Positions 502 through 31,372 of a stretch of 64,000 nt of DNA are shown piece after piece. The notes beneath the pieces were generated by a model, which did no database searches, had not been told where the DNA came from, and saw nothing but the letters and a program-made list of their open reading frames with translations. The DNA comes from Asanoa ishikariensis (GTDB lineage Bacteria; Actinomycetota; Actinomycetes; Mycobacteriales; Micromonosporaceae): assembly GCF_900107455.1 (NCBI RefSeq), contig NZ_FNQB01000005.1, positions 372,001 through 436,000 of the forward strand, read 5' to 3'. How positions within the stretch are numbered: position 1 is the first letter of the stretch; each line of letters starts with the position of its first letter. Made by a program: the position numbers and the translations under genes.

Positions 502-1092
502 TCAGCTCGTCGACCGCAGCTGTCCCCGGCCGTTGGCGTTCATCGCCTCGACGAGGTCCTCGCGCGCCCGGGCGACGCGGGAGCGGATGGTTCCGACCGG
601 GCAGCCGCAGACCTCGGCGGCCTCGGCATAGCTGAGTCCGGCGATCTGGGTCGCCACGAACGCCTCGCGACGCTCGGCGCTCAACCCTTGCATGAGGGCG
701 GTCAGGGCCACGCCGACCTCGAAGCCCGCAGGGCGCTCGCGCAGCGTGGCGGCCTCGGCCGCGATCCGCCAGTCCTGGGTGGCGGCGATCCGGGGTCGCC
801 TGGTGATCGACCGGACGTGGTCGACGCAGACCCGGCGGGCGATGGCCAGCAGCCACGTCGTGGCCGACGAGCGGCCGTCGAACGACGGCAGGGACCGCAT
901 CGCGCGCAGGTACGTCTCCTGGGTGAGGTCGTCGACGTCGCCCTGAGCCGAGAGGTGCCCGATGAACCGCCGCACCGTGTGCTGGGTCGCCTCCACGAAC
1001 GCGGCCGCCGCGGCACGATCACCCGTTCCCGCGGCCAGGGCGCGCTCCGTGATCAGGTCGGCGAGCTCCGGATCAGCCTCAGGCATGGGCAT
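502..1092 (-). CDS. ECF-family RNA polymerase sigma factor
   Basis: The 196-residue protein has the two sigma domains of group 4 sigma factors and little else. Region 2 lies at about residues 25-95 with the DDLTQETYLRAMRSL helix and a following ATTWLLAIARR segment. Region 4 lies at about 130-185 with the helix-turn-helix AGLSYAEAAEVCGCPVGTIRSR. The family directs RNA polymerase to a small set of promoters and is normally held by an anti-sigma factor; a zinc-finger anti-sigma gene lies divergently, 61 bases away. Two ATGs (1092 and 1086) are possible; 1092 was chosen. Neighbouring copper, zinc and disulfide genes and the repeated GGAACY-N16-CGACNN sites suggest its regulon. Architecture and the copper context recall mycobacterial SigC, but orthology is not proven. 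Confidence 0.93.
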   Translation of the reverse strand: MPMPEADPELADLITERALAAGTGDRAAAAAFVEATQHTVRRFIGHLSAQGDVDDLTQETYLRAMRSLPSFDGRSSATTWLLAIARRVCVDHVRSITRRPRIAATQDWRIAAEAATLRERPAGFEVGVALTALMQGLSAERREAFVATQIAGLSYAEAAEVCGCPVGTIRSRVARAREDLVEAMNANGRGQLRSTS

Positions 1093-1118: not shown

Positions 1119-1146
1119 GGAACCGGCGGGCCGTGCCCGGCGACTA
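1119..1146 (+). promoter_or_regulatory. ECF-type promoter of the anti-sigma gene
   Basis: GGAACC at 1119-1124 and CGACTA at 1141-1146 are separated by 16 bases. The same layout recurs at 2540, 4422, 4664 and 8561. The expected start of transcription falls at or next to the GTG at 1154, so the anti-sigma mRNA would be leaderless. Assignment to the sigma factor at 502-1092 is inference. Confidence 0.6.
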
Positions 1147-1153
1147 TCAGGGT

Positions 1154-1879
1154 GTGGGATGCGAGCGGTATCGCGAGGCTCTCTCCGCAGGTCTCGACGG
1201 GGAAGCGGCACCGGACGACGCCCAAGGCATCGATCAGCATCTGTATGTCTGCCCATCTTGCCGGTCATGGCTGGACGCCGCCGCAGCGGTCACCCGGATC
1301 GCCCGGACCTCTGCCGTGCCCGCTGGTGGCATGCCGGTTCCGGTGTTCGAGCCGCCTGCCGTGCGATGTTTCGGGGTGCCGTGGCTGCTCCGCGTCGGTT
1401 TGGCCGGCGTCGGCTTCGCGCAGTTCCTCCTTGGCGCGGCGCAGACAGCCGGCATCGGGCGGGCCGCGCACCTGGACCACGTCGGCGCGCCGGGCTCGGG
1501 GCATTTGTGGCACGAGTCGGCCGCGTGGAACCTGGCGCTCGGTGCTGGGTTCTTGTTCGTGGCCATTCGCCGGACTCGGCCCGCCGGCCTGCTTCCGACG
1601 CTCACGACGTTCGTCGCGGTGCTGGGGTTGCTGTCGCTGGGTGACATCGCCGACGGCAGGGTGGGTGCCGGCCGGTTGGCCAGCCACGCATTCCTCCTCG
1701 CCGGCTACCTGCTGACGATCGCTCTGTCGCGGCCGGCACTGGACCCCGGTCGGCCGCCAAGCGGTCGAAGGCACGGATGGAGTGTCCTGAGCCCGCGCGC
1801 GGAGGCGTTCTCGGCTGCGATGGTGGCCGAGGGCAGGTCGGCCGTGACCGCCGAGGTTCGCGAAGAACCGGCCGCGTAA
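1154..1879 (+). CDS. zinc-finger membrane anti-sigma factor
   Basis: The start is the GTG at 1154, beginning GCERYREALSAGLDGE, the typical opening of zf-HC2 anti-sigma domains. The zinc ligands appear as HLYVCPSC (the HxxxCxxC pattern) near residue 35. About five hydrophobic segments follow between residues 75 and 195, so the protein sits in the membrane with an N-terminal cytoplasmic anti-sigma domain. It is 241 residues long. It is divergent from the ECF sigma gene, which it most likely binds and inhibits. A longer upstream reading of the frame runs into the sigma gene and lacks conserved features. How the signal is sensed is not visible; the membrane part has histidines (HLDHVG, HLWHE) that could bind a metal, which is speculation. 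Confidence 0.85.
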   Translation: MGCERYREALSAGLDGEAAPDDAQGIDQHLYVCPSCRSWLDAAAAVTRIARTSAVPAGGMPVPVFEPPAVRCFGVPWLLRVGLAGVGFAQFLLGAAQTAGIGRAAHLDHVGAPGSGHLWHESAAWNLALGAGFLFVAIRRTRPAGLLPTLTTFVAVLGLLSLGDIADGRVGAGRLASHAFLLAGYLLTIALSRPALDPGRPPSGRRHGWSVLSPRAEAFSAAMVAEGRSAVTAEVREEPAA

Positions 1880-1887
1880 GCGTGGCG

Positions 1888-2478
1888 TCAGGAGGCCGCC
1901 CGACGGCGCCGCCACCATGCCAGCCCGCCGCCGAACACGATCACGGCGGCGACCACGGCGATGATCCAACCGAGCGGACCGGACCCGCGGCCGGACGAGG
2001 TCCGTGACACCGGGACCGGGGACGCCGCCGTCGGCTCGGCCGTCGCCGGAGTTGGCGAGGGTGTTGCGGCTGCGACGTTCGGGCTCGGGCTTGTCGCGAC
2101 GGGCGGGGCGACCTTGTTGGTGAAGGAGAACGTCCCCTGGATGGGATGGCCGTCGGACGACACCGTCCGCCACCGCACCGTGATGGTGCCGACCGGCAGC
2201 GGCCGCACCGCCTGGGTGACCGTGCGGTCCACCGCGCTGGCCGCGCCGTCGCTATAGGAGACCTCGTCCGGCCCGGCAACCACCACAGTGGTCCCGGCCT
2301 TCTTGATCAGCCCGCTGAACTTCAGGGTCACGTCCGTGACCGCCTTGCGCACGGTGGCCTTCGCCGCTGGTGTCGACCCCGTCAACTTCGTGTGCGCGAA
2401 CGCCGGCGACGCCGGCAACCACACCGTCGCTGCCACGACGACAGCAGCCACGACAGCCAGTGAACGGGAACGGGACAT
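1888..2478 (-). CDS. CopC-domain copper resistance protein, membrane anchored
   Basis: The 196-residue protein starts at ATG 2478 behind a GAGGAGG ribosome site. A signal peptide ends in PAFA, and the mature protein begins HTKLTGSTPA, giving the N-terminal copper-binding histidine of CopC. The CopC beta-sandwich covers about residues 28-120, with the late motif SSDGHPIQGTFSF supplying a second conserved histidine. A Thr/Pro/Ala-rich linker and one C-terminal membrane helix followed by RRRR anchor it outside the cell. CopD is not fused or adjacent. It ends 8 bases from the convergent anti-sigma gene and is divergent from the PCu(A)C gene. The role is extracytoplasmic copper binding or delivery. 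Confidence 0.92.
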   Translation of the reverse strand: MSRSRSLAVVAAVVVAATVWLPASPAFAHTKLTGSTPAAKATVRKAVTDVTLKFSGLIKKAGTTVVVAGPDEVSYSDGAASAVDRTVTQAVRPLPVGTITVRWRTVSSDGHPIQGTFSFTNKVAPPVATSPSPNVAAATPSPTPATAEPTAASPVPVSRTSSGRGSGPLGWIIAVVAAVIVFGGGLAWWRRRRAAS

Positions 2479-2539
2479 AGGGAAGCCTCCTCGAGTGACG
2501 CTCCACACGGTAGCCCCGGTCGATGCAGCCGGACGAGCC

Positions 2540-2567
2540 GGAACTTCTTCGGAAGCCCTGACGACCA
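2540..2567 (+). promoter_or_regulatory. ECF-type promoter of the PCu(A)C-DyP operon
   Basis: GGAACT at 2540-2545 and CGACCA at 2562-2567 have the same 16-base spacer as the other four sites. The start codon at 2611 would leave a leader of about 36 bases with a GGAGG ribosome site. Regulation by the sigma factor at 502-1092 is inferred. Confidence 0.6.
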
Positions 2568-2610
2568 ATCCTCTGACGCACCGATGAGCGACGACCGGAG
2601 GAACCACGGC

Positions 2611-3165
2611 ATGAGCATTTCCACGACAGCGCGCGGTCTCGCGCTCGCGGCGACCGCGGCGCTCGCGTTGCTCGCGACGGCCTGTGGTTCCGCGGCCGAG
2701 CCGGCCAGCACCAGCACGCCGCCCCCACCGTCCGCGTCGGTCCCGGCCGACCCCATCGCCGTGCGCGACATATGGGTCAAGACAGCGGACAAGGGCATGA
2801 CGGCCGCGTTCGGCACGCTACTCAACACCGGCGGCAGCGAGCTTCGGATCGTCAAGGCCACCTCCACCGCCTCGCCGATGATGGAGCTCCACGAGGTCGC
2901 CGAGGTCGACGGCAAGATGGAGATGCGGCCCAAGGAGGGCGGGTTCACGATCCCGGCCGGAGGCAGTCACGAGCTCAAGCCGGGCGGCGACCACCTGATG
3001 ATGATGGACGTCAAGGCGCCAGTTAAGGCCGGCGACGAGGTCACGTTCACCCTGACCCTCGACGACGGCAAGACCTTCGAGTTCACCGCGGTGGCCAAGG
3101 ACTTCGCGGGCGGCAACGAGAGCTACAACCCGGGCTCCAGCGCCAGCCCGATGACCATGGGCTGA
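2611..3165 (+). CDS. PCu(A)C-type copper chaperone lipoprotein
   Basis: The start is ATG 2611, with GGAGG just upstream. A lipoprotein signal ends LLATACGS, so the mature 160-odd residues are lipid anchored outside the membrane. The PCu(A)C copper site is visible: MMELHEV and KMEMRP, then SHELKPGGDHLMMMDV, supplying the H/M ligands of the family pattern. These proteins carry Cu(I) to cytochrome oxidase or related targets. The stop overlaps the start of the DyP peroxidase gene (TGATG), so the two are translationally coupled. A methionine-rich C-terminal tail (SPMTMG) may also hold copper. Confidence 0.92.
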   Translation: MSISTTARGLALAATAALALLATACGSAAEPASTSTPPPPSASVPADPIAVRDIWVKTADKGMTAAFGTLLNTGGSELRIVKATSTASPMMELHEVAEVDGKMEMRPKEGGFTIPAGGSHELKPGGDHLMMMDVKAPVKAGDEVTFTLTLDDGKTFEFTAVAKDFAGGNESYNPGSSASPMTMG

Positions 3166-4403
3166 TGGGTACGCCCGACCGGCCGCTGTCCCGGCGGCGC
3201 CTGCTCGGCGGCGGTGCTTTGGCCGTCGGCGGGGGTGTCGTCGGGGCCGGCCTCACGGCCGGGGCGCACGCCTTCGCCGCCACCGATGCCCAGCCAGCCA
3301 CACCAGCGGCGCCAGCCGTTCAAGTCCTCGGAACCCAGACCGTTCCCTTCTACGGCGCGCACCAGGCCGGAGTCGACACCCCGGCCCAGGCGCATGCCGC
3401 GTTCCTCTCCTTCGACCTGCGTCCAGGCGTCGACCGAGCCGCCCTGGGGCGGATGATGCGGCTGCTCACCGACGACGCCGCCCGCCTCACCCAGGGCCGC
3501 CCGGCCCTGGCCGACACCGAGCCGGAGCTGGCCGCCATGCCGGCCCGGCTGACGGTCACGTTCGGATTCGGCCCGAAGCTGTTCGCCGCAGCCGGCCTCG
3601 ACTCGCATCGACCGACCTCGCTGGCACCGTTGCCCGCGTTCCCGATCGACAAGCTCCAGCCACAGTGGACCGGCGGGGACCTGCTCATCCAGATCTGCGC
3701 CGACGAGCCGCTCACCGTCACCCACACCCAACGCATGCTCATCAAGGACACGCGCGCCTTCGGCAGCATCCGCTGGACCCAGCGCGGCTTCCGGCGCAGC
3801 CGCGGCATGGAGGACGACGGCGTCACCCAACGCAATGTCATGGGTCAGCTCGACGGCACGCGCAACCCCAAGCTCGGCACGCCCGTGTTCGACGGAGCCG
3901 TCTGGGTTGACAGTGGACCGACCTGGCTGCACGGCGGCACGACCGTCGTCGTGCGGCGGATCCGGGCCGAGCTCGAGACCTGGGACGCCGCCGACCCCAC
4001 CGCCAAGGAGTTCGCCGTCGGTCGCCGCCTGTCCGACGGCGCGCCACTCACCGGCGTCGACGAGCACGATCAGCCCGACCTGGCCAAGACCAACGAGCTC
4101 GGCTTCACCGTCATATCCGAGTCGGCGCACATCGCCCGCGCCCACGTCACGTCCGACCGGCAGCGGATCTTCCGGCGCCCGTACAACTATGACGAAGCGC
4201 CAGGACCGGACGGGAACTCAGACGCCGGGCTGATCTTCGCCGCCTACCAGCGCGACATCGGCACCCAGTTTCTCCCCATCCAGCGCAACCTCGCCGAGAA
4301 CGACCTCCTCAACGACTGGATCACGCCGATCGGCTCGGCTGTCTTCGCCGTCCCACCGGGTTGTCGTGAGGATGGATGGGTGGGCCAATCCCTGCTGGGC
4401 TGA
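3165..4403 (+). CDS. Tat-exported Dyp-type haem peroxidase
   Basis: The 412-residue protein opens with a twin-arginine signal (LSRRRLLGGG followed by a hydrophobic stretch and AHAFA). The dye-decolourising peroxidase fold follows, with the diagnostic GxxDG motif as GQLDGTRNP near residue 225 and the proximal haem histidine region in the DEHDQPD to HIARAHVTSDRQR segment. The C-terminal GLIFAAYQRDIGTQFLPIQ block is typical of the EfeB-like class. It works outside the membrane after folding with haem in the cytoplasm. Its start shares a base with the stop of the PCu(A)C gene. An EfeU/EfeO iron-uptake partner is not present here, so an oxidative or copper-linked role is more likely than iron extraction. 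Confidence 0.93.
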   Translation: MGTPDRPLSRRRLLGGGALAVGGGVVGAGLTAGAHAFAATDAQPATPAAPAVQVLGTQTVPFYGAHQAGVDTPAQAHAAFLSFDLRPGVDRAALGRMMRLLTDDAARLTQGRPALADTEPELAAMPARLTVTFGFGPKLFAAAGLDSHRPTSLAPLPAFPIDKLQPQWTGGDLLIQICADEPLTVTHTQRMLIKDTRAFGSIRWTQRGFRRSRGMEDDGVTQRNVMGQLDGTRNPKLGTPVFDGAVWVDSGPTWLHGGTTVVVRRIRAELETWDAADPTAKEFAVGRRLSDGAPLTGVDEHDQPDLAKTNELGFTVISESAHIARAHVTSDRQRIFRRPYNYDEAPGPDGNSDAGLIFAAYQRDIGTQFLPIQRNLAENDLLNDWITPIGSAVFAVPPGCREDGWVGQSLLG

Positions 4404-4421
4404 CCCGAGCGAAGGCGGACG

Positions 4422-4449
4422 GGAACCGGACCCCGTTCGCGGACGACTG
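4422..4449 (+). promoter_or_regulatory. ECF-type promoter, distal, upstream of the metal ABC operon
   Basis: GGAACC at 4422-4427, 16 bases, CGACTG at 4444-4449. It lies just after the DyP stop and about 290 bases before the ABC gene, with a strong hairpin (4601-4636) in between. Confidence 0.5.
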
Positions 4450-4600
4450 AATAGTGTGCGGGGCTATCCTCCGGGTCCCGCTCAGAACGCCCGGCGGAGC
4501 CCGCTGTCGCGGGTTGATCTGTCGTCACGAGTGGGCACGCGGTGCTGGTCGTCAGTCAGGGCCGCGCTGCCGCAGGGCACACGTGGTCGACGGCCGGGGG

Positions 4601-4636
4601 CGAGTGGGGCGGCCGACGGCGCGGCCGCCCCACTCG
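4601..4636. terminator. strong hairpin between DyP gene and metal ABC operon
   Basis: A perfect 14-base-pair stem, CGAGTGGGGCGGCC against GGCCGCCCCACTCG, with an 8-base loop. No T-run follows. It probably ends DyP transcription or attenuates transcripts from the distal promoter at 4422. The stretch 4404-4736 holds no gene. Confidence 0.6.
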
Positions 4637-4663
4637 CCGTTCCGGACCAGTCTGCGGTCGGCG

Positions 4664-4691
4664 GGAACCGGATGCTCAAGATTCACGACTA
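4664..4691 (+). promoter_or_regulatory. ECF-type promoter, proximal, of the metal ABC operon
   Basis: GGAACC at 4664-4669, 16 bases, CGACTA at 4686-4691, identical in both hexamers to the site at 1119. It lies 46 bases before the GTG start of the ABC ATPase gene and beyond the hairpin. Confidence 0.6.
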
Positions 4692-4736
4692 CCAGTTCAT
4701 GAAGCGTGTCGGGTGTGGACAGGCACTGGTGTCCGG

Positions 4737-5369
4737 GTGACCGCCACGACCGTTTCCTTCGCCTCGGTTACCTGCAGGTTCGGTCGACGGACGGTGGTCG
4801 ACGAGGTCGACCTCACCGTCGCCGCCGGGGAACACCTCGCGCTGACCGGCGCGAACGGGTCCGGCAAGACAACGCTCCTGCGTGCCGCGCTCGGCCTGCA
4901 TCCCATCGCGTCTGGCGTGGTGGCGGTAGGTGGTGTCCCCGCTGATGGTCCTGGTGCTCTGGCGCGGCGACGCCGAGAGGTGGCGTGGATGCCGCAGCGG
5001 CTCGCGCCGGGCCGGTTCCCGCTGCTCGCCGGTGAGCTGCTCGACAGCGGCGGCGATCCCGTGGCAGCCCGCGACGCCGCTGGCCGCCTCGATGTCGGGA
5101 GCCTGCGCGACCGCCCGTTGGACACCCTCTCCGGTGGGCAGCTGCAGCGCGTGTTCCTGGCTCGCGCGCTGGGCGCCGTTGCCGCCGGTGCCCGCGTGCT
5201 CTTCGCCGACGAACCGACGGCGGCGCTCGACTTCGCCGGACAGGAGCAGGTCGCCGCGTTGCTGGCTGCACTGCCGGTCACGATGGTCGTGATCTCCCAC
5301 GACCGGACCACGACCCGCGCGTGCGATCGCGTCGCCGAGATGGCCGCCGGCCGCCTACGGCTGGTGTGA
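4737..5369 (+). CDS. metal ABC transporter ATP-binding protein (Zn/Mn type)
   Basis: The start is GTG 4737; the longer reading upstream runs through the promoter. The 210-residue ATPase shows Walker A GANGSGKT near residue 38, the signature LSGGQLQRV near 130, Walker B RVLFADEPTAALD near 155 and the switch histidine in VVISHD. It powers uptake together with the permease and lipoprotein encoded directly after it. The gene order ATPase-permease-binding protein and the permease family point to divalent metal uptake (zinc or manganese class); the sequence does not decide which metal. Confidence 0.9.
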   Translation: MTATTVSFASVTCRFGRRTVVDEVDLTVAAGEHLALTGANGSGKTTLLRAALGLHPIASGVVAVGGVPADGPGALARRRREVAWMPQRLAPGRFPLLAGELLDSGGDPVAARDAAGRLDVGSLRDRPLDTLSGGQLQRVFLARALGAVAAGARVLFADEPTAALDFAGQEQVAALLAALPVTMVVISHDRTTTRACDRVAEMAAGRLRLV

Positions 5370-5373
5370 GGGC

Positions 5374-6255
5374 GTGGACCAGTTCATGACGCTGCTCGAG
5401 CTACCCGCCGTACAACGGTCGGCGGCGGGCCTCGCGATCGCGGCGGTGGTCCTGCCGATCGTCGGTGTCTTCATCATCGGACTCGACATCATCGCGGTCC
5501 GTTTCGCGATCATGCACGTGGCGTTGCTCGGCATCGCTGTCGGCCTGTTGACCGGGCTCGACCCGACGCTGTGCGGGCTGGCCGCCTGCGCGATCGCCGG
5601 CGCCGGCGTGGCGCCGCTGGCTCGACGTCCCGCCGGCCTGTCGGGAGCCATGGGCCTGCTGATGACCTTCGCGATCGCCGCCGCCCTGCTCGTGCTGTCG
5701 GTCTCCGGCGTCAACGCGACCGGTGCGTTCGAGCTGCTCTGGGGTTCCATCCTGGCCGTCCGCGCGGTCGACCTGTGGATCCTCGCGGCGCTGGCCGTCG
5801 CGGTCCACGTGCTTTTCTGGCGCTGGCGTCGGCAGCTCGCGCTGCTGCTGTTCGACCGGGAGCTGGCGCTCTGCTCGGGCGTCGCGGCCGGTCCGCTGAT
5901 GCTGGCGCTACTCGCGGTCGTGGCGGTCGCGATCGGGGCGTCGATCCGCCTGACCGGTGCCCTGCTCGTCGACGCGTTGACGATCCTGCCGGCTCTCGCG
6001 GCCCGCAACCTCGGCCGATCGCTGACCTCGATGGCGCTGTGGGCGGTCGCCTTCGGCGTCGTCGGCAACGCGGTCGGCTTCTCTCTCGCGCTCGCGCTCG
6101 ACCAGCCGCCGGGCCCCGTGCTGGTGCTGGTCTGCGGCGGGCTGACCCTGGCCACCTATCTCATACCCGAAGGAGCGATCGATGCGTTGGTCCCGAGCCG
6201 CCGCCGCAGTGGTGACGACTCTCGTTCTCTTGACAGCCGGATGCTCCAGCACTGA
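5374..6255 (+). CDS. metal ABC transporter permease (ABC-3 family)
   Basis: The 293-residue protein has about eight hydrophobic helices and the family pattern IGLDIIAVRFAIMHVALLG at the start and ASIRLTGALLVDALTILPA towards the end, as in ZnuB/MntB-type permeases. It starts at GTG 5374, four bases after the ATPase stop. Its last 74 bases overlap the start of the binding-protein gene, so the C-terminal tail past about residue 270 (SRRRSGDDSRSL) may be non-conserved. It forms the membrane channel of the importer. Confidence 0.88.
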   Translation: MDQFMTLLELPAVQRSAAGLAIAAVVLPIVGVFIIGLDIIAVRFAIMHVALLGIAVGLLTGLDPTLCGLAACAIAGAGVAPLARRPAGLSGAMGLLMTFAIAAALLVLSVSGVNATGAFELLWGSILAVRAVDLWILAALAVAVHVLFWRWRRQLALLLFDRELALCSGVAAGPLMLALLAVVAVAIGASIRLTGALLVDALTILPALAARNLGRSLTSMALWAVAFGVVGNAVGFSLALALDQPPGPVLVLVCGGLTLATYLIPEGAIDALVPSRRRSGDDSRSLDSRMLQH

Positions 6256-6967
6256 CGCGAGCCCAACGACGGCCGGGTCGCCACCGGCCGGTGACGAGCT
6301 CACTGTGGTCGCGTCGACCAGCTGGGCCGGCGCCCTCGCCAAGGCCGCCGGCGCGTCCGCCGTCACGGTCATCGCGCCGGCCAACGTCCAGCATCCGCCG
6401 GACTACGATGCGAAACCCAGTGACCTGGCCGCGGTGGCCGGCGCCGACTACATCCTCTACGCGGAGTTCGACGGCTTCGCCGCCAAGATCAAAGAAGCGA
6501 CCGGAGGCACTGGAGAGCTCGTACCGGTCGAGCTCGAGAACACGCCGGCGAAGATCCGTGCGGAGGTGACCCGACTCGGCGCGATGTTCGGCACGGAATC
6601 CGCGGCGACGACCTGGCTGTCCAGTTTCGACACTGAATATGCGGCGCTCTCGTCGGGTGTGAAGGCGAAGGTGCCCACCACACCACCCGTGGTCGTCTCG
6701 CACCTCTTCATGGGCTACTGGGGCGAGTTCGCCGGATTACAGGTGCAGGCAACGTACGGACCTGAGCCGATCACACCGGGACAGCTCGCCGAGCTCACCG
6801 CGAAGAAGCCGACCATCGTCCTCGCCAACTCACACATTCCCGGGGCCAACCCGGAGATTCCCGGTGCCAAACGGGTCGACATCGTCAACTTTCCCGCCGA
6901 TGACCTCGATCTGCTGGGCGTGTTCCGGACCAACGCACAGCGGCTGACCGCCGCGGTCGCGGGTTGA
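6182..6967 (+). CDS. metal-binding lipoprotein of the ABC importer (ZnuA-like)
   Basis: The 261-residue protein has a lipoprotein signal ending LLTAGCSS and a compact solute-binding (TroA-type) fold: VVASTSWAGALAKAAG at the front, the QHPPDYDAKPSDL segment carrying a likely metal-ligand histidine, and VVVSHLFMGYWGEFAGLQVQ in the second lobe with another histidine. ZnuA proteins usually have a His-rich loop; none is seen here. It starts inside the permease gene and its stop overlaps the next gene. It captures the metal ion outside the membrane for the permease. Metal choice (zinc versus manganese or other) remains open. Confidence 0.85.
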   Translation: MRWSRAAAAVVTTLVLLTAGCSSTDASPTTAGSPPAGDELTVVASTSWAGALAKAAGASAVTVIAPANVQHPPDYDAKPSDLAAVAGADYILYAEFDGFAAKIKEATGGTGELVPVELENTPAKIRAEVTRLGAMFGTESAATTWLSSFDTEYAALSSGVKAKVPTTPPVVVSHLFMGYWGEFAGLQVQATYGPEPITPGQLAELTAKKPTIVLANSHIPGANPEIPGAKRVDIVNFPADDLDLLGVFRTNAQRLTAAVAG

Positions 6968-8595
6968 GCATCGCCGTGCCCGGTGTGCTGGTCGTCGGAG
7001 GCGGCCCGGTCGGCCTGAGCATCGCGCTCCGGCTCGCTCAACTCGCCGTCCCGGTCACCCTGGTCGAGCGGCACACCGGCACGGCCACCTTTCCGAAAGG
7101 GCGTGCGCTGAGCGTGCGCAGTATGGAGATCTACCGATCGTGGGGCATCGAAGCGGACGTGACCGCCGCCGGCCTACCTCGCGACCAGCTCGCGTTCTAC
7201 GCCGGACGGTCGCTGGTCGACCCGGTCGGCACCCGGATGGTCGCCAACCCGGCGTCGCGGCCGCTGCCCAGCCCCACGTACACCCTGCTGTGCTCCCAGG
7301 ACCGCCTCGAACCCCTGCTGCGCGAAGCGGCGTCGCGGAGGACAACCGCACGCATCCGTTTCTGAGTCGAGTTGGTCGCGCTGACCACCGAAGCGGAGCG
7401 GCCGATCGCCACCTTGCGTGATCGCCGCACCGGCGAGGTGGAGCAACTGCGACCCGACTGGGTCGTCGGCGCCGACGGTGCCCACAGCACCGTCCGCGAC
7501 GCGCTCGGCATCGCCATGACAGGGCCGACCGATGTCTCGCACAACGTCAACATCCTCTTCGAAGCGGACCTTGCCGCTCACCTCACCGACCGGCTCAGCG
7601 CGGTCTACACCGTCCAACGGCCGGAGCTGCACGGCACGTTCCTCGCCGTCGACAGCGACCGGCGATGGCTGTTCAATCTCGTGGTCGACGGCGGCCCGCC
7701 CGCCGATCTCGACAACCGGGCGGCGGCCGACCTGATCCGATCAGCGGCGGGGCTGGCGGACCTGCACCTGACCATCGTGGCGCAACAAGTCTGGCGTGCG
7801 GCGGCTCGAATCGCCGACCGCTTCCAGGCCGGTCGGGTGCTCCTCGCGGGCGACGCCGCACACGTCACCACGCCTTACGGCGGCTTCGGTCTCAACTGCG
7901 GCATCGCCGACGCGGACAACCTCGCCTGGAAGCTCGCGGCCGTCTACCACGGACGGGCATGGCCGGCACTGCTGGACACCTACGCGGCAGAGCGAAGACC
8001 GGTCGCCGAGCTCAGCGTCGCGGAAAGCCACACCCGCCTCGTCGACGCCATGGCGGCGCACCGGACGGGCGCCGCACCGACCGCGAGACCCAGCGAGGGT
8101 CTGGTGCTCGGCTACCACTACACCTCGGCCGCCGTCATCGCGGACTCCTCGCCGGCGCCCCCCGGCGACCCGGTCGCTGATTACGAGCCGGTCGGTCGTC
8201 CGGGCCACCGGCTGCCGCACCTATGGCTCGGCCAGCCGCAGCGAACCTCCACACTGGACCTTCTGGATCCGCTTGAGCTGACCGTGCTGGCCGGACGAGA
8301 CGCCGACTGGTGCCCGGCATGGCCGGTGACCCGCCGGATCGGCACGGCCGACTTGCCCGACCCCGACGACGCGTTCCTGGACCTGTGCGGAATCGGACCG
8401 AACGGCGCGGTCCTGGTTCGGCCCGACGGCCACATCGCGTGGCGAGCGCCGGCCCGCCCGGCGGACGGCGCGGACGCACTCGTGGACGCGGCCGGCCGGA
8501 TCCTGTCCGCCACACCAAGCGCACGACCGACGTCCCCGGCCAGGAATGTTCCCCCTGGCGGGAACCGCGACCACCCCGCGGACGACCGAATCTAG
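6964..8595 (+). pseudogene. FAD-dependent aromatic hydroxylase interrupted by an in-frame TGA
   Basis: The frame is continuous except for TGA at 7363-7365 (reading ...TARIRF-stop-VELVAL...). The first part has the FAD Rossmann motif VVGGGPVGLSIALRLAQ at its start. The second has the NADPH/FAD motif GADGAHSTVRDALG, and RVLLAGDAAHVTTPYGGFGLNCG, the GD motif of group A flavin monooxygenases, then a C-terminal thioredoxin-like tail. A GGA to TGA change would explain the stop. Intact relatives hydroxylate aromatic or polyketide substrates. The start could be TTG 6964 overlapping the upstream stop, or GTG 6976. It stands at the end of the metal importer operon, which is an odd partner. Sequencing error is a real alternative to decay. 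Confidence 0.85.
8561..8588 (+). promoter_or_regulatory. ECF-type promoter of the dsbA-VKOR pair
   Basis: GGAACC at 8561-8566, 16 bases, CGACCG at 8583-8588, matching the other four sites. It lies at the 3' end of the hydroxylase gene, 56 bases before ATG 8645. Confidence 0.55.
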
Positions 8596-8644: not shown

Positions 8645-9384
8645 ATGTCGAGAAGAACGCCCCACTCGCCGGCAATCAACGGCGCCAAGTCCCCTCAGGT
8701 CAAGCCCGTCGACAAGTCAGTAGCGGCGCTGCGCCGGCGCGGCCTCAGCACCAACGCCAAGCTCACCATCGGCTTGCTCACGTCGTGCTCGTCGGTCTGG
8801 TCGGCTTGTTCGTCTATGTCGAAAGCGCCGGTGACAATCCCTCCGGGAGCGCCGACCTGGTCACCGCCGACAGTCACCGATTGTCGGAAGCCAGCGACGG
8901 CAGGGTCACGCTCGTCGAGTTCCTCGACTTCGAGTGCCCATCCTGCGGCCAGGCATTCCCCGCCGTCGAGCAACTACGCGAGGAATACGACGGCCGCATC
9001 ACGTACGTTGTCCGCAACTTCCCGCTGCCCATGCACCGCAACGCCGAGAACGCGGCCAAGGCCGCCGAGGCCGCGGGACTGCAAGGGAAGTTCGAGGAGA
9101 TGTACCTACAGCTGTTCCGGAACCAGCAGTCGTGGGGCGGCGGGCAGGACGACCGTGCGGAGACGTTCGTGGACTACGCGCGACAACTCGGCCTCGACGT
9201 CGAACGGTTCACATCCGACCTTGCCGGGGCCGAGGTCGAGCGGCGTGTCCGAACCGATGTCGCGGCGGGCGAGGCGGCCAGAGTGATTGGCACGCCGACC
9301 TTCTTCCTCAACGGTGAGCGGATCTCGGCTCCGCCCAGCTACCAGGCCCTCAAGGACGCCGTCGACAATGCCTTGGCCGGTTAA
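8645..9384 (+). pseudogene. DsbA/thioredoxin-family protein with a frameshift in its membrane anchor
   Basis: From ATG 8645 the frame gives a basic N-terminus and the start of a membrane helix (NAKLTIGLL), then breaks near 8781. The continuation in another frame, VVLVGLVGLFVYVESAGD, completes the helix, so one base appears lost. The catalytic domain is intact: FLDFECPSCGQAFPAVEQL holds the CxxC site, and GTPTFFLNG holds the cis-proline loop. Intact relatives are membrane-anchored oxidoreductases that introduce or isomerise disulfides outside the cell. The stop overlaps the start of the VKOR gene (TAATGG), and together they would form an oxidation system. The sequence may be a true pseudogene or contain an indel error. 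Confidence 0.85.
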
Positions 9385-10022
9385 TGGCGGTCACCGGGAC
9401 TACGGCGCCCCGGTCCGCGCCGATCGACGACCCGGTCCGGTCACACACCATCGACTGTGTCCTGACGGTGGGAGGCCTGCTCGGCCTCGCGGCGGCTGCC
9501 ACGTTGACGGTCGAGAAAGATGTACCTGCTGGCCGATCCGTCGTACCGGCCGAGCTGCAGCATCAATCCGATCCTGTCGTGCGGCTCGGTGATGACCACC
9601 GCGCAGGCCGAGGCCTTCGGTTTCCCCAACCCGGTGATCGGGATGGTCGCCTTTCCGGTAGTGGTGGCACTCGGACTGGCCGTGCTTACGGGGATCCGGC
9701 TCAACCGCCTTTCTGGCTGGGGCTCCAGGCAGGCGCCGCCTTCGGCGTGGTGTTCGTGCACTGGCTGATCTTCCAGAGCCTCTAGCGCATCGGTGCGCTG
9801 TGTCCGTACTGCATGGTCTTCTGGGTCGTGACGATCGCTATCTTCTGGTACGTCACCCTGCACAACCTGCGGACCGACAATCTGCCATCACCCCGCACGC
9901 TTCTGCCCCTCATCAGCTTCGCCGTTCGTAGCCACACGTTTGTTCTGCTCATGTGGTACCTGACGATCGTGGCGCTGATCGGTGTCCGGTTCTGGTCCTA
10001 CTGGCGGACGTTGCTGACGTGA
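9384..10022 (+). pseudogene. vitamin K epoxide reductase (VKOR) family protein, two frameshifts and one stop
   Basis: VKOR proteins reoxidise DsbA partners using quinone. All expected parts are present but not in one frame. Residues SHTIDCVLTVGGLLGL begin the first helix. An apparent extra base in the AAA run at about 9518-9520 shifts to the frame with PSCSINPILSCGSVM, the loop cysteine pair. An apparent lost base near 9713 returns to the original frame. TAG at 9783-9785 then interrupts FQSL-stop-RIGALCPYCMVF, where tyrosine is usual, just before the active CxxC (CPYC). Its 3' end overlaps the convergent MFS gene by about 74 bases. Two compensating indels plus a stop within 270 bases suggest sequence error or recent decay. 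Confidence 0.85.
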
Positions 10023-11235
10023 CCGGCGAACCAGCGCTGCCCACCATCGTGGGGTGTCGCTGTGCCCAGCGGATGGCGGGCGGCGCCAACAGCCCGGTCA
10101 GCGCGAACATCGCGCCGGCGACGTACCAGCCGGGTGTGCCCCAGGTGATGCAGAGGGCGATCAGCAGAGCGGGTCCGAACGCGTCGGCTAGGCCGGCGCC
10201 GAGGCCGAACACACCCAGATACTGGCCGGTGGCGTGGATCGGGGCCAAGGCGAAGGAGATCTCGAATCCGGCGGCGGCGTGCCAGAGCTCGCCGATCGTG
10301 TGGATGACCGCCGCGACGAGCAGGAGTGTCACGGCCGCCCAGGCGGGCGTGGCTCTGGTGACGGCGATCAGCGAGCAGGAGGCGAGGAAGGCGATTCCGG
10401 AGCGCCGATATGCCCGTCCGCCGGCGGCTGGGGAGTCGATGCCGCGGCTGGCGCGGACCTGGAAGGCGACCACCATGAGGGTCCCGACGAGCATGGTCCC
10501 GGAAACGATCCACGCCGGTGCGGTCGTCGCCGTCACCACCCACAGCGGGATGAGGACGGTGAGCACCTTGAACTGGATCGCCATGACGCCGTCGATCGCG
10601 GTCAGCACCAGGTAGGGCCAGTCGCTGAGGGCCAGCCAGCGCGGGCCGGGAACGGTCGGCTCCGGAGCGACCGCGGGCAGGGCGACCAGGATGACGGCGG
10701 AGATGACGAACGCGATCGCGTTGCCCAGAACCATGAGGTGGTACGCGGTCAGCGTGCCGACCTGGACGGCCCAACCGGCGCCCAGGGCGCCGAGCGAGAT
10801 ACCGACGTTGGTCACGCTGCGCAGGTAGGCGCGGAACTCCTGCGGTCGGTCGCCGCCGTAGTGGCGGATGAGTGGGCTGCGGGCGGCCAGGCCGGCCGCT
10901 TTCGCGCCGGCAGCGGCGCAGACCGCGACGACGAACGGCCAGAATTCGTGTACGAGCACGAACGCGGCGGTGGCGAGGGCCTGGACGGCGAGGGTGACGG
11001 CGTACACGCCGCGGGCGCCGTGCCGGTCGGCGAGGTGCCCGGCGCCGATCCCGACGGCCAGCGCCAGGGAGCCAGCGATCGCGAGTCCGGCACCCACCTG
11101 GGTCGCGGGCAGATGCAGTGCCTGGGTGAAGTAGAGGACTCCGGCGGTCAGGTAAAGGCCGCTGCCGACGGTGTAGACGAAGTTGGACGCGGCGAGCAGG
11201 CGCTCGGGCCCGCTTTCAGGCAGCAGTCGCGGCAT
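9949..11235 (-). CDS. major facilitator superfamily transporter at the end of the nik-like operon
   Basis: The 428-residue protein starts at ATG 11235 and has 12 hydrophobic segments in two halves. The loop motif GAGHLADRHGARGV between helices 2 and 3 matches the MFS signature. It overlaps the upstream ABC ATPase gene by 20 bases and so is the last gene of the minus-strand operon that begins at nikA. The last 25 or so residues are read across the VKOR gene and may not be conserved. In opine-metallophore systems an MFS exporter accompanies an ABC importer of this type; no metallophore synthesis gene is seen here, so that role is only a possibility. Substrate unknown. Confidence 0.85.
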   Translation of the reverse strand: MPRLLPESGPERLLAASNFVYTVGSGLYLTAGVLYFTQALHLPATQVGAGLAIAGSLALAVGIGAGHLADRHGARGVYAVTLAVQALATAAFVLVHEFWPFVVAVCAAAGAKAAGLAARSPLIRHYGGDRPQEFRAYLRSVTNVGISLGALGAGWAVQVGTLTAYHLMVLGNAIAFVISAVILVALPAVAPEPTVPGPRWLALSDWPYLVLTAIDGVMAIQFKVLTVLIPLWVVTATTAPAWIVSGTMLVGTLMVVAFQVRASRGIDSPAAGGRAYRRSGIAFLASCSLIAVTRATPAWAAVTLLLVAAVIHTIGELWHAAAGFEISFALAPIHATGQYLGVFGLGAGLADAFGPALLIALCITWGTPGWYVAGAMFALTGLLAPPAIRWAQRHPTMVGSAGSPVTSATSASRTRTGHRSAPRSSGTT

Positions 11236-30814: not shown

Positions 30815-31372
30815 GTGTGCACACGATCTTGGAGGCTGACCGACGCCGAAGCAGCCGATGTCGCCAGCGCCTCCTTCACCAAGTTGCTGGAAGAACGTCT
30901 CATCGGCCGTATCTACGCGGCTGCCGAGTCCGCCCGGCAAGAGGAACGACGTAAACGACAGCGGTCGCTTATTGCAGACATCGTCCATGCCGCCGACAAC
31001 TGGACCAACACGATGCAGGAACTCGCTATTGGCAGCGCACGACGTCGGTGGGAAACGCGCGACATTGTCGAGTGGGTAAACAGCGATAGTGGGCGTGCGT
31101 TGGTAAGCAACATGCAGCTCATCAAGTCGAACGCACGTAAACTTCGTCTCGAAACACCGCACCCGGATCTGCTAGTGGCACTCGATGCCGCGCAAACGGC
31201 CGTGAGCAACCCAGAGGTCTTTGATCCGATCTGGAACGGATCTGGTAGCGCACCAGAGGCGAGGGCGGTCGTCTACCGACATCTCAACTACGTCAAACGA
31301 GTCTTCCTAAATCTCGAGCAGATCGGGATCAAGGTGCTGGCTGAGCCGCAGCCCGACGGCACGCAACCCTGA
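30815..31372 (+). CDS. hypothetical protein, mostly helical
   Basis: The frame is open further upstream, but that part is antisense to the riboswitch and toroid gene, so I take GTG 30815 (185 residues) with low certainty. The protein is charged and helical: SARQEERRKRQRSLIADIVHAA, RRRWETRDIVEWVNSD, then HLNYVKRVFLNLEQIGIKV. No signal peptide or membrane helix. I do not recognise the family. It lies at the left edge of the accessory stretch with nuclease and HEPN-like genes and is read in the same direction. Bases 31373-31615 hold no gene. Confidence 0.5.
   Translation: MCTRSWRLTDAEAADVASASFTKLLEERLIGRIYAAAESARQEERRKRQRSLIADIVHAADNWTNTMQELAIGSARRRWETRDIVEWVNSDSGRALVSNMQLIKSNARKLRLETPHPDLLVALDAAQTAVSNPEVFDPIWNGSGSAPEARAVVYRHLNYVKRVFLNLEQIGIKVLAEPQPDGTQP

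Follow-up and report, generated by a model that had tools for sequence, protein, structure and literature searches.

The left end of a 64,000-nt stretch of the Asanoa ishikariensis genome (C6:372001-436000 in 9.09 Mb; hereafter the window) carries five copies of the pattern GGAACY-N16-CGAC, here called the loose pattern, and raises the question of whether these are promoters and, if so, of which regulon. The copies lie on the plus strand at 1119-1144, 2540-2565, 4422-4447, 4664-4689 and 8561-8586; all five were found where the first-pass annotation of this DNA had placed them, with exactly 16 bases between the hexamers in 5/5, and its claim that a sigma factor and an anti-sigma factor are encoded beside them was confirmed. 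We read the sites, at a probability of roughly 75%, as promoters of a copper-supply regulon of SigC-like type, whose membrane anti-sigma factor (zf-HC2) is divergently encoded. The regulator genes, and the genes around the promoters that lead into intact units, are these:

502..1092, minus strand: SigC-like extracytoplasmic function (ECF) sigma factor, 196 amino acids (Pfam Sigma70_r2/r4_2)
1119..1144, plus strand: predicted anti-sigma promoter, start codon 9 nt past CGAC; conserved in the congener G004
1154..1879, plus strand: zf-HC2 membrane anti-sigma factor, 241 amino acids, GTG start; zinc motif C3, H29, C33, C36; four predicted membrane helices with H117, E121 and H178
1888..2478, minus strand: CopC-domain protein (Pfam CopC, 4e-22), without a motif of its own
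2540..2565, plus strand: predicted PCu(A)C-DyP operon promoter; elements conserved and spacer diverged in the congeners G004 and G005
2584..3165, plus strand: PCu(A)C copper chaperone (Pfam PCuAC, 8e-36)
3165..4403, plus strand: Dyp-type peroxidase (Pfam Dyp_perox N and C; TIGR01412 376 bits, cut-off 428)
4664..4689, plus strand: predicted promoter of a metal ATP-binding cassette (ABC) operon; conserved in G004, where the gene is a remnant, with a copy in Streptomyces humicola ahead of an ATPase gene of 61% identity
4699-4740, plus strand: 13-codon mini-open reading frame (mini-ORF), start 9 nt past CGAC, stop overlapping the ATPase start
4737..5369, plus strand: ABC transporter ATPase (Pfam ABC_tran, 1e-21)
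5374..6255, plus strand: ABC-3 family permease (Pfam ABC-3, 2e-32)
6182..6967, plus strand: ZnuA-type substrate-binding protein (Pfam ZnuA, 1.5e-10, N-terminal part only)

Across the whole window the loose pattern matches six times against 0.58 expected, a number reached in 0 of 100 shuffles; the sixth, at 31018, falls within an open coding frame and is likely due to chance. A scan of the complete genome, which the first-pass annotation had put forward as a check, gave a divided answer. The loose pattern barely exceeded its reversed control (104 matches compared with 83), so this form alone is mostly noise, whereas the strict pattern, GGGAACY-Nk-CGACYA, peaks at N16: 7 matches at k=16 against 2, 0, 2, 0, 3 and 2 at k=13, 14, 15, 17, 18 and 19. 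Together these make 16 matches, the reversed control giving 17 in all, and the seven strict N16 sites precede anti-sigma genes (3), PepSY genes (2), a YcnI-type gene (1) and the metal ABC operon of the window (1). The accompanying count of promoters versus coding DNA placed 38 of the 100 classified genome sites (100/104) outside coding DNA, as judged by a codon-composition test. Clustering is marked, with a Poisson P of ~4e-8 for five sites in 7.5 kb and of ~2e-12 for eight sites in 11.6 kb when three more just left of the window are included, both for stretches picked after the sites had been seen.

The spacing is far sharper in other genomes. In 118 loci with SigC-like sigma factors (2,259,359 bases) there are 109 strict motifs at k=16 and 0-2 at every other k from 10 to 22; because the two locus sets share at least two genomes (L088/L105, L099/L181), the 109 reduce to 107 distinct motifs. 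Loose matches numbered 89 against 5 for the reversed control in the first 40 loci, two of them from A. ishikariensis itself, and 176 against 16 in the 80 named loci. We conclude that GGGAACY-N16-CGACYA is, to judge from these comparisons, a real promoter class and its spacing genuine. A promoter rule of this sharpness should make copper-supply regulons readable from genome sequence.

Conservation in the two congeners points the same way. G004 keeps the anti-sigma, PCuAC, ABC, copC, ORF117 and PepSY sites in place, and G005 keeps those of PCuAC, copC and PepSY (the last three sites of G004 correspond to motif copies just left of the window, listed below); the promoter elements stay constant while the spacers change, most clearly before PCuAC. 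The earlier proposal that copper-delivery, peroxidase and metal-import genes stand behind a common promoter class was borne out. The mini-ORF has a positional counterpart of different sequence in G004, where a tRNA-Met gene also lies just past the ABC remnant (L063:15071-15145).

The first ORF was classified behind 104 of the 109 strict motifs elsewhere, using a reference set that includes anti-sigma proteins from the same loci. It encodes an anti-sigma factor in 38 cases (two duplicates included), a PepSY protein in 10, CopC in 8, a sigma factor in 6, YcnI and MauE in 4 each, a heavy-metal P-ATPase in 3, and PCuAC, CopD-CtaG and an ABC ATPase in 1 each. The remaining 28 were unassigned by this comparison; 11 are Streptomyces proteins that resemble one another and are of acyl-CoA dehydrogenase type, 6 more also resemble one another and are of Peripla_BP_2 type (one member of each group confirmed by Pfam), and 11 are others. 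In Streptomyces L120, L125, L139, L140, L147, L148, L152, L155, L156, L160 and L169, two face-to-face motifs with starts ~70 bp apart precede the acyl-CoA dehydrogenase-type gene. In Mycobacterium angelicum (L137:3416-10513), the motif leads into an HMA-domain P-type ATPase gene and then an anti-sigma relative, divergent from a SigC-like sigma gene.

Relatives of the window permease, 65-71% identical, occur in 11 of the 80 named loci with a SigC-like sigma factor (10 Streptomyces, 1 Acrocarpospora), and the M. angelicum sigma locus contains a ScoE-type oxygenase (470 bits, cut-off 400). ScoE-type oxygenases are linked to chalkophore synthesis. Given this target set, namely the first ORFs in other genomes, the permease relatives and ScoE, we take the regulon to gather copper rather than zinc, and copper-supply genes stand among the predicted targets as in the SigC-like/ECF36 group. 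Zinc had been included in the original proposal, and nothing here supports it, though no direct test was made: the likeness to SigC together with PCu(A)C, CopC, CopD/CtaG and YcnI indicates copper supply. The importer shows only family matches, to ABC_tran, ABC-3 and, in part, ZnuA.

The best Protein Data Bank match of the window sigma factor is Mycobacterium tuberculosis SigC (2o7g, 4e-25). Its best two NCBIfam models are PRK12535 and SigC, both under their cut-offs, and the same two models were matched by 17/17 proteins scanned. By its closest likeness to SigC among ECF sigma factors, the protein would belong to the SigC-like/ECF36 group. The motif in the window stands before the anti-sigma gene, not the sigma gene, and the sigma gene (502..1092) has no motif copy before it on its own strand. 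In Micromonospora L103 (near 9980) and L112 (near 9956) a motif lies directly before the sigma gene, so autoregulation differs between species. The A. ishikariensis genome also encodes two paralogous sigma/anti-sigma pairs (C3:1493865 and C2:1696059), whose sigma factors are 69% and 51% identical to that of the window and whose anti-sigma genes have the same promoter. The claim that one sigma factor coordinates the regulon is for this reason not established.

The anti-sigma protein has a zf-HC2 Pfam match (8e-8) and shows the signature of ZAS-type (zf-HC2) factors, His-X3-Cys-X2-Cys with a further Cys near the N-terminus. Its gene lies at a nearly fixed distance from the promoter: among 41 sources searched, the zf-HC2 ORF starts 9 nt past CGAC in 28 of 33 cases (4 at 10 nt, 1 at 15; one of 34 rows, a wrong-frame ORF in L069, was dropped), and among the 80 named loci in 25 of 29 (4 at 10 nt), counts that cover starts 6-24 nt and 3-39 nt behind the motif, respectively. 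Longer leaders of 27 or 48 nt precede three anti-sigma genes (L077, L088, L105). Judged by the usual distance from a -10 element to the transcription start, a start codon 9 nt past CGAC predicts that the anti-sigma mRNA is probably leaderless.

In an alignment of the 33 proteins, C3, H29, C33, C36, Q90, H117 and E121 are invariant and H178 is present in 32; the proteins had been selected for His-X3-Cys-X2-Cys but not for C3. A second set of 28 proteins (the window and 27 named) has Q90 and E121 invariant and H117 and H178 in at least 90%. A structure model with a predicted local distance difference test score (pLDDT) of 80.5 and a predicted template-modelling score (pTM) of 0.60 has helices at 75-99, 115-138, 144-167 and 172-191, which would put H117, E121, D164 and H178 near the outer face, provided the zinc domain is inside. 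These nearly invariant His/Glu residues are a candidate copper-sensing site and the most promising lead. Tentatively, the anti-sigma factor could be the copper sensor that SigC-type sigma factors have so far lacked, sensing the metal directly, although we hold this for somewhat doubtful. Copper at H117, E121 and H178, D164 and Q90 being additional candidates, might keep the zinc-finger domain on sigma, and loss of copper might free it. Because many actinobacteria have a SigC-like sigma factor beside one conserved membrane anti-sigma factor with few near-invariant residues, the question of the sensor is a testable one in harmless laboratory actinobacteria.

Several relatives differ in architecture. 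In Mycolicibacter heraklionensis (L145:9002-10474) a zf-HC2/DUF2275 anti-sigma factor and SigC share one open frame; the SigC part scores 327.9 bits, above the NCBIfam cut-off, and the fusion has the conserved His/Glu pattern. The window protein has no match to DUF2275 (Pfam PF10039) up to E 0.05; in L145 the part homologous to it, which the family profile also picks up, matches at 6.6e-20. In L078 (7148-9568) an anti-sigma factor of the family is fused in frame to CopC and CopD (808 amino acids), in a Pseudonocardiales metagenome-assembled genome (L107:12419-12970) a zf-HC2 domain behind the motif has a Cys/His-rich tail replacing the membrane half, and in L159 and L166 an anti-sigma relative lies upstream on the same strand. 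If the anti-sigma factor were the sensor, Mycolicibacter would have it fused to SigC and L078 to CopC-CopD, and L107 would have swapped its membrane half for the Cys/His-rich tail. The literature searched, with Morosov et al., Casas-Pastor et al. and Toyoda and Inui outside its reach, contained no report of a separate anti-sigma factor for SigC-like sigma factors. The link between such sigma factors and DUF2275 anti-sigma factors is partly known, since ECF36 members fused to a DUF2275 anti-sigma factor are already mentioned in PMC8999054.

The comparison with characterized systems draws on excerpts of the cited papers. A close parallel is sigma-C of Corynebacterium glutamicum (Toyoda and Inui 2016), whose promoter elements GGGAACT and CGACTA, as given in the discussion of PMC5483222, match the motif described here, and whose regulon is active under copper deprivation (PMC7337898). 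CtiP, CopC and PCuAC are proposed to supply copper in that species (PMC9145763), and the copper-deprivation proteins CopC, PCuAC and CopD-CtaG (CtiP) are common to both regulons. A sigma-C promoter there also precedes cg2556, an "iron-regulated membrane protein" that, going by its name, we guess to be PepSY-like. The two differ in that cydABCD is a target in C. glutamicum, whereas the ABC-3/ZnuA importer and the dsbA-VKOR unit are added here; and in the one Corynebacterium locus examined (L171) no anti-sigma relative was found, unlike in the window. Copper starvation is likewise tied to SigC in M. tuberculosis (PMC7924339), the closest solved relative and a member of ECF36 (PMC7924339, PMC8999054), with ctpB and nrp as targets that recall the P-ATPase and chalkophore-type genes seen in the present set of relatives. 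M. tuberculosis SigC is, in the excerpts available, reported as monocistronic and without a known anti-sigma factor, whereas here a separate anti-sigma factor exists and is itself a predicted target. The ECF36-DUF2275 fusions have the same kind of anti-sigma factor, L145 being one, but sigma and anti-sigma are separate and divergent in the window and the window protein lacks the DUF2275 match. CorE of Myxococcus xanthus is a copper-linked ECF sigma factor too, but senses copper through its own C-terminal Cys-rich extension (PMC8999054).

On the reading that we prefer, the SigC-like sigma factor (502-1092), possibly along with its two paralogues, would recognize the sites. When extracytoplasmic copper is short, the divergent membrane anti-sigma factor (1154-1879) would release sigma, and RNA polymerase would start at GGGAACY-N16-CGACYA before genes that gather copper or hand it on, namely copC-copD/ctaG, PepSY, PCu(A)C-DyP and the ABC importer. 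The anti-sigma gene, whose start codon falls on the position where transcription is predicted to begin, would be a target too, and the response therefore self-limiting. The link from sigma factor to promoter to regulon is in our view very probable, and copper shortage is the likely signal.

Two of the five sites are weaker members of the class. The features that bear on them are as follows:

4422..4447, plus strand: copy of the motif that no gene follows, at the position where G005 has the promoter of a YcnI-type gene
4599..4638, plus strand: 17-bp perfect hairpin without a T run, between 4422 and 4664 (fold -47 kcal/mol for 51 nt)
6964..8595, plus strand: flavin adenine dinucleotide (FAD) mono-oxygenase-type gene broken by an internal stop; two open pieces, each matching FAD_binding_3
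8561..8586, plus strand: predicted promoter before a damaged dsbA-VKOR pair; at the same place before the intact dsbA of G004 (L238)
8645..9384, plus strand: dsbA-type gene with an N-terminal frame change, by comparison with the intact L238 relative (Pfam Thioredoxin_4/DSBA on the open part)
9384..10022, plus strand: VKOR-type gene with frame changes and an internal stop; open piece 9786-10019 matches VKOR at 8e-5, the intact L238 relative at 2e-43

The generalization that the motif always precedes the first gene of a transcription unit fails at 4422, where no gene follows, and 8561 leads into a damaged unit. G004 lacks the motif at the corresponding position, though the noncoding stretch behind 4422 is conserved there. 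G005 has a motif immediately past the DyP stop codon, followed by a YcnI-type gene and, after that gene, the conserved noncoding stretch. Because G005 has its YcnI promoter at the same position, 4422 may be the leftover promoter of a lost ycnI; a chance match is also possible. The hairpin stretch is 81% conserved in G004 and 83% in G005, where it lies behind YcnI, and the hairpin is probably a transcript end, although the region 4599..4638 gave no terminator-like match. A riboswitch between 4422 and 4664 was considered and set aside: no Rfam match came near its gathering score, and a transcript end is the likelier since G005 keeps the stretch without an ABC operon after it. A second promoter for the metal ABC operon, as the first-pass annotation had it, is accordingly unproven, with no coding-type ORF starting within 200 nt of 4422, no motif at the matching place in G004 and a 17-bp hairpin before the operon.

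Of the dsbA-VKOR unit proposed behind 8561, the motif is present, but VKOR is broken and dsbA disrupted; an intact pair with the motif in front is found in G004, at another locus. A shortened product might still be made from the open DsbA domain. Among 12 DsbA loci scanned, those of A. ishikariensis and G004 have the motif directly in front and 7 lack it there; in L243 the distance to the matched part is ~250 bases, the L239 match falls in apparent coding DNA, and L240 offers nothing but a match with the wrong spacing near the start.

A number of observations weigh against the reading of the sites as SigC-like copper-supply promoters. The window sigma factor scores 176.5 bits against the NCBIfam SigC equivalog model (NF007231), below the curated cut-off of 219, and is for this reason named SigC-like, not SigC. 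Three paralogous sigma factors share the motif. No coding-type ORF of at least 80 codons begins within 200 nt of 4422, and neither 4422 nor 8561 leads to a fully intact unit in the window. In G005 (L064:12047-13868) the sigma factor is kept at 89%, and the neighboring anti-sigma gene and two small ORFs were not matched. Of 27 Streptomyces loci searched with the anti-sigma profile, 20 gave nothing and 7 gave weak relatives (E 1e-10 to 1e-16). As to the sensor, the L151 anti-sigma relative lacks both His, a fold search with the anti-sigma model gave 0/174 matches at E <=0.001, and the conserved His/Glu fall short of proving metal binding. CopC and DyP could equally serve in copper excess. Finally, PMC5483222 is internally inconsistent, its introduction giving GGAAAC and CGACT.

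How far do these points favor other explanations? That GC-rich DNA produced the five sites by chance, for which the slight genome-wide excess of the loose pattern over its control might speak, is highly improbable: clustering, the spacing spectrum and conservation in other genomes argue against it, and it is already contradicted for 1119, 2540 and 4664. It is unlikely that the regulon answers copper excess or copper-driven oxidative stress, with CopC, CopD, PCu(A)C and the peroxidase protective. CopC and CopD are indeed filed as copper homeostasis/resistance proteins, and the peroxidase could suit oxidative stress; however, an importer, a CtaG-type oxidase assembly factor and, at relatives, chalkophore-type genes lie behind the motif or near sigma, and characterized regulators with this promoter or sigma type respond to copper or respiratory shortage.

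Two further alternatives deserve more weight, though we consider each improbable. The signal might come from the terminal oxidase, through its haem a or electron-flow status, with copper acting by that route alone; this has been speculated for C. glutamicum sigma-C, with defective aa3 electron transfer as the stimulus (PMC7337898, in excerpt). The CtaG-type assembly factor in the regulon would fit, but many other targets are copper binders or transporters, and no oxidase subunit was recognized among the first ORFs behind the motif, 11 of 104 of which were not identified by family search. Alternatively, the window sites might be read by one or more of the paralogous sigma factors (C3:1493865, C2:1696059), the window sigma factor having its main role elsewhere; both paralogous pairs have the motif before their anti-sigma gene, and G005 keeps targets with the motif without a local anti-sigma gene. 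Against this, the genes for sigma, anti-sigma and targets remain neighbors in G004 and, in part, in other genera.

Beyond the window, the copper cluster continues to the left with three more motif sites:

C6:371576-371601, minus strand: motif site preceding copC, then a CopD-CtaG fusion
C6:371614, plus strand: motif site preceding a 117-amino-acid ORF (ORF117)
C6:368968, minus strand: motif site preceding a PepSY gene

A model built on 59 anti-sigma promoters taken from other genomes gave its five highest own-genome scores to the promoters before the paralogous anti-sigma genes on C3 and C2, to the site of a MauE-type gene beside the C2 one, to 1119 in the window, and to that of a YcnI-type (DUF1775) gene at C3:1110869. 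Thirteen non-coding sites scored at least 15.8, a limit set after the list was seen: 11 in the window cluster or at top-scoring genes (4422 included) and 2 elsewhere (L002, L200). Lower scores were obtained for 8561 (13.6) and 2540 (12.9). The predicted regulon is not confined to the window, and further sites lie at a distance.

Left of the copper cluster, L031:8110-9803 holds a tRNA-Leu gene and an ORF of the phage-integrase family. A mobile island was considered on account of this pair and rejected, since the tRNA end is not repeated in the window. At L031 ~10296-10393, left of PepSY, a short stretch resembles the C-terminal end of a YcnI-type protein and is perhaps the remnant of a lost ycnI.

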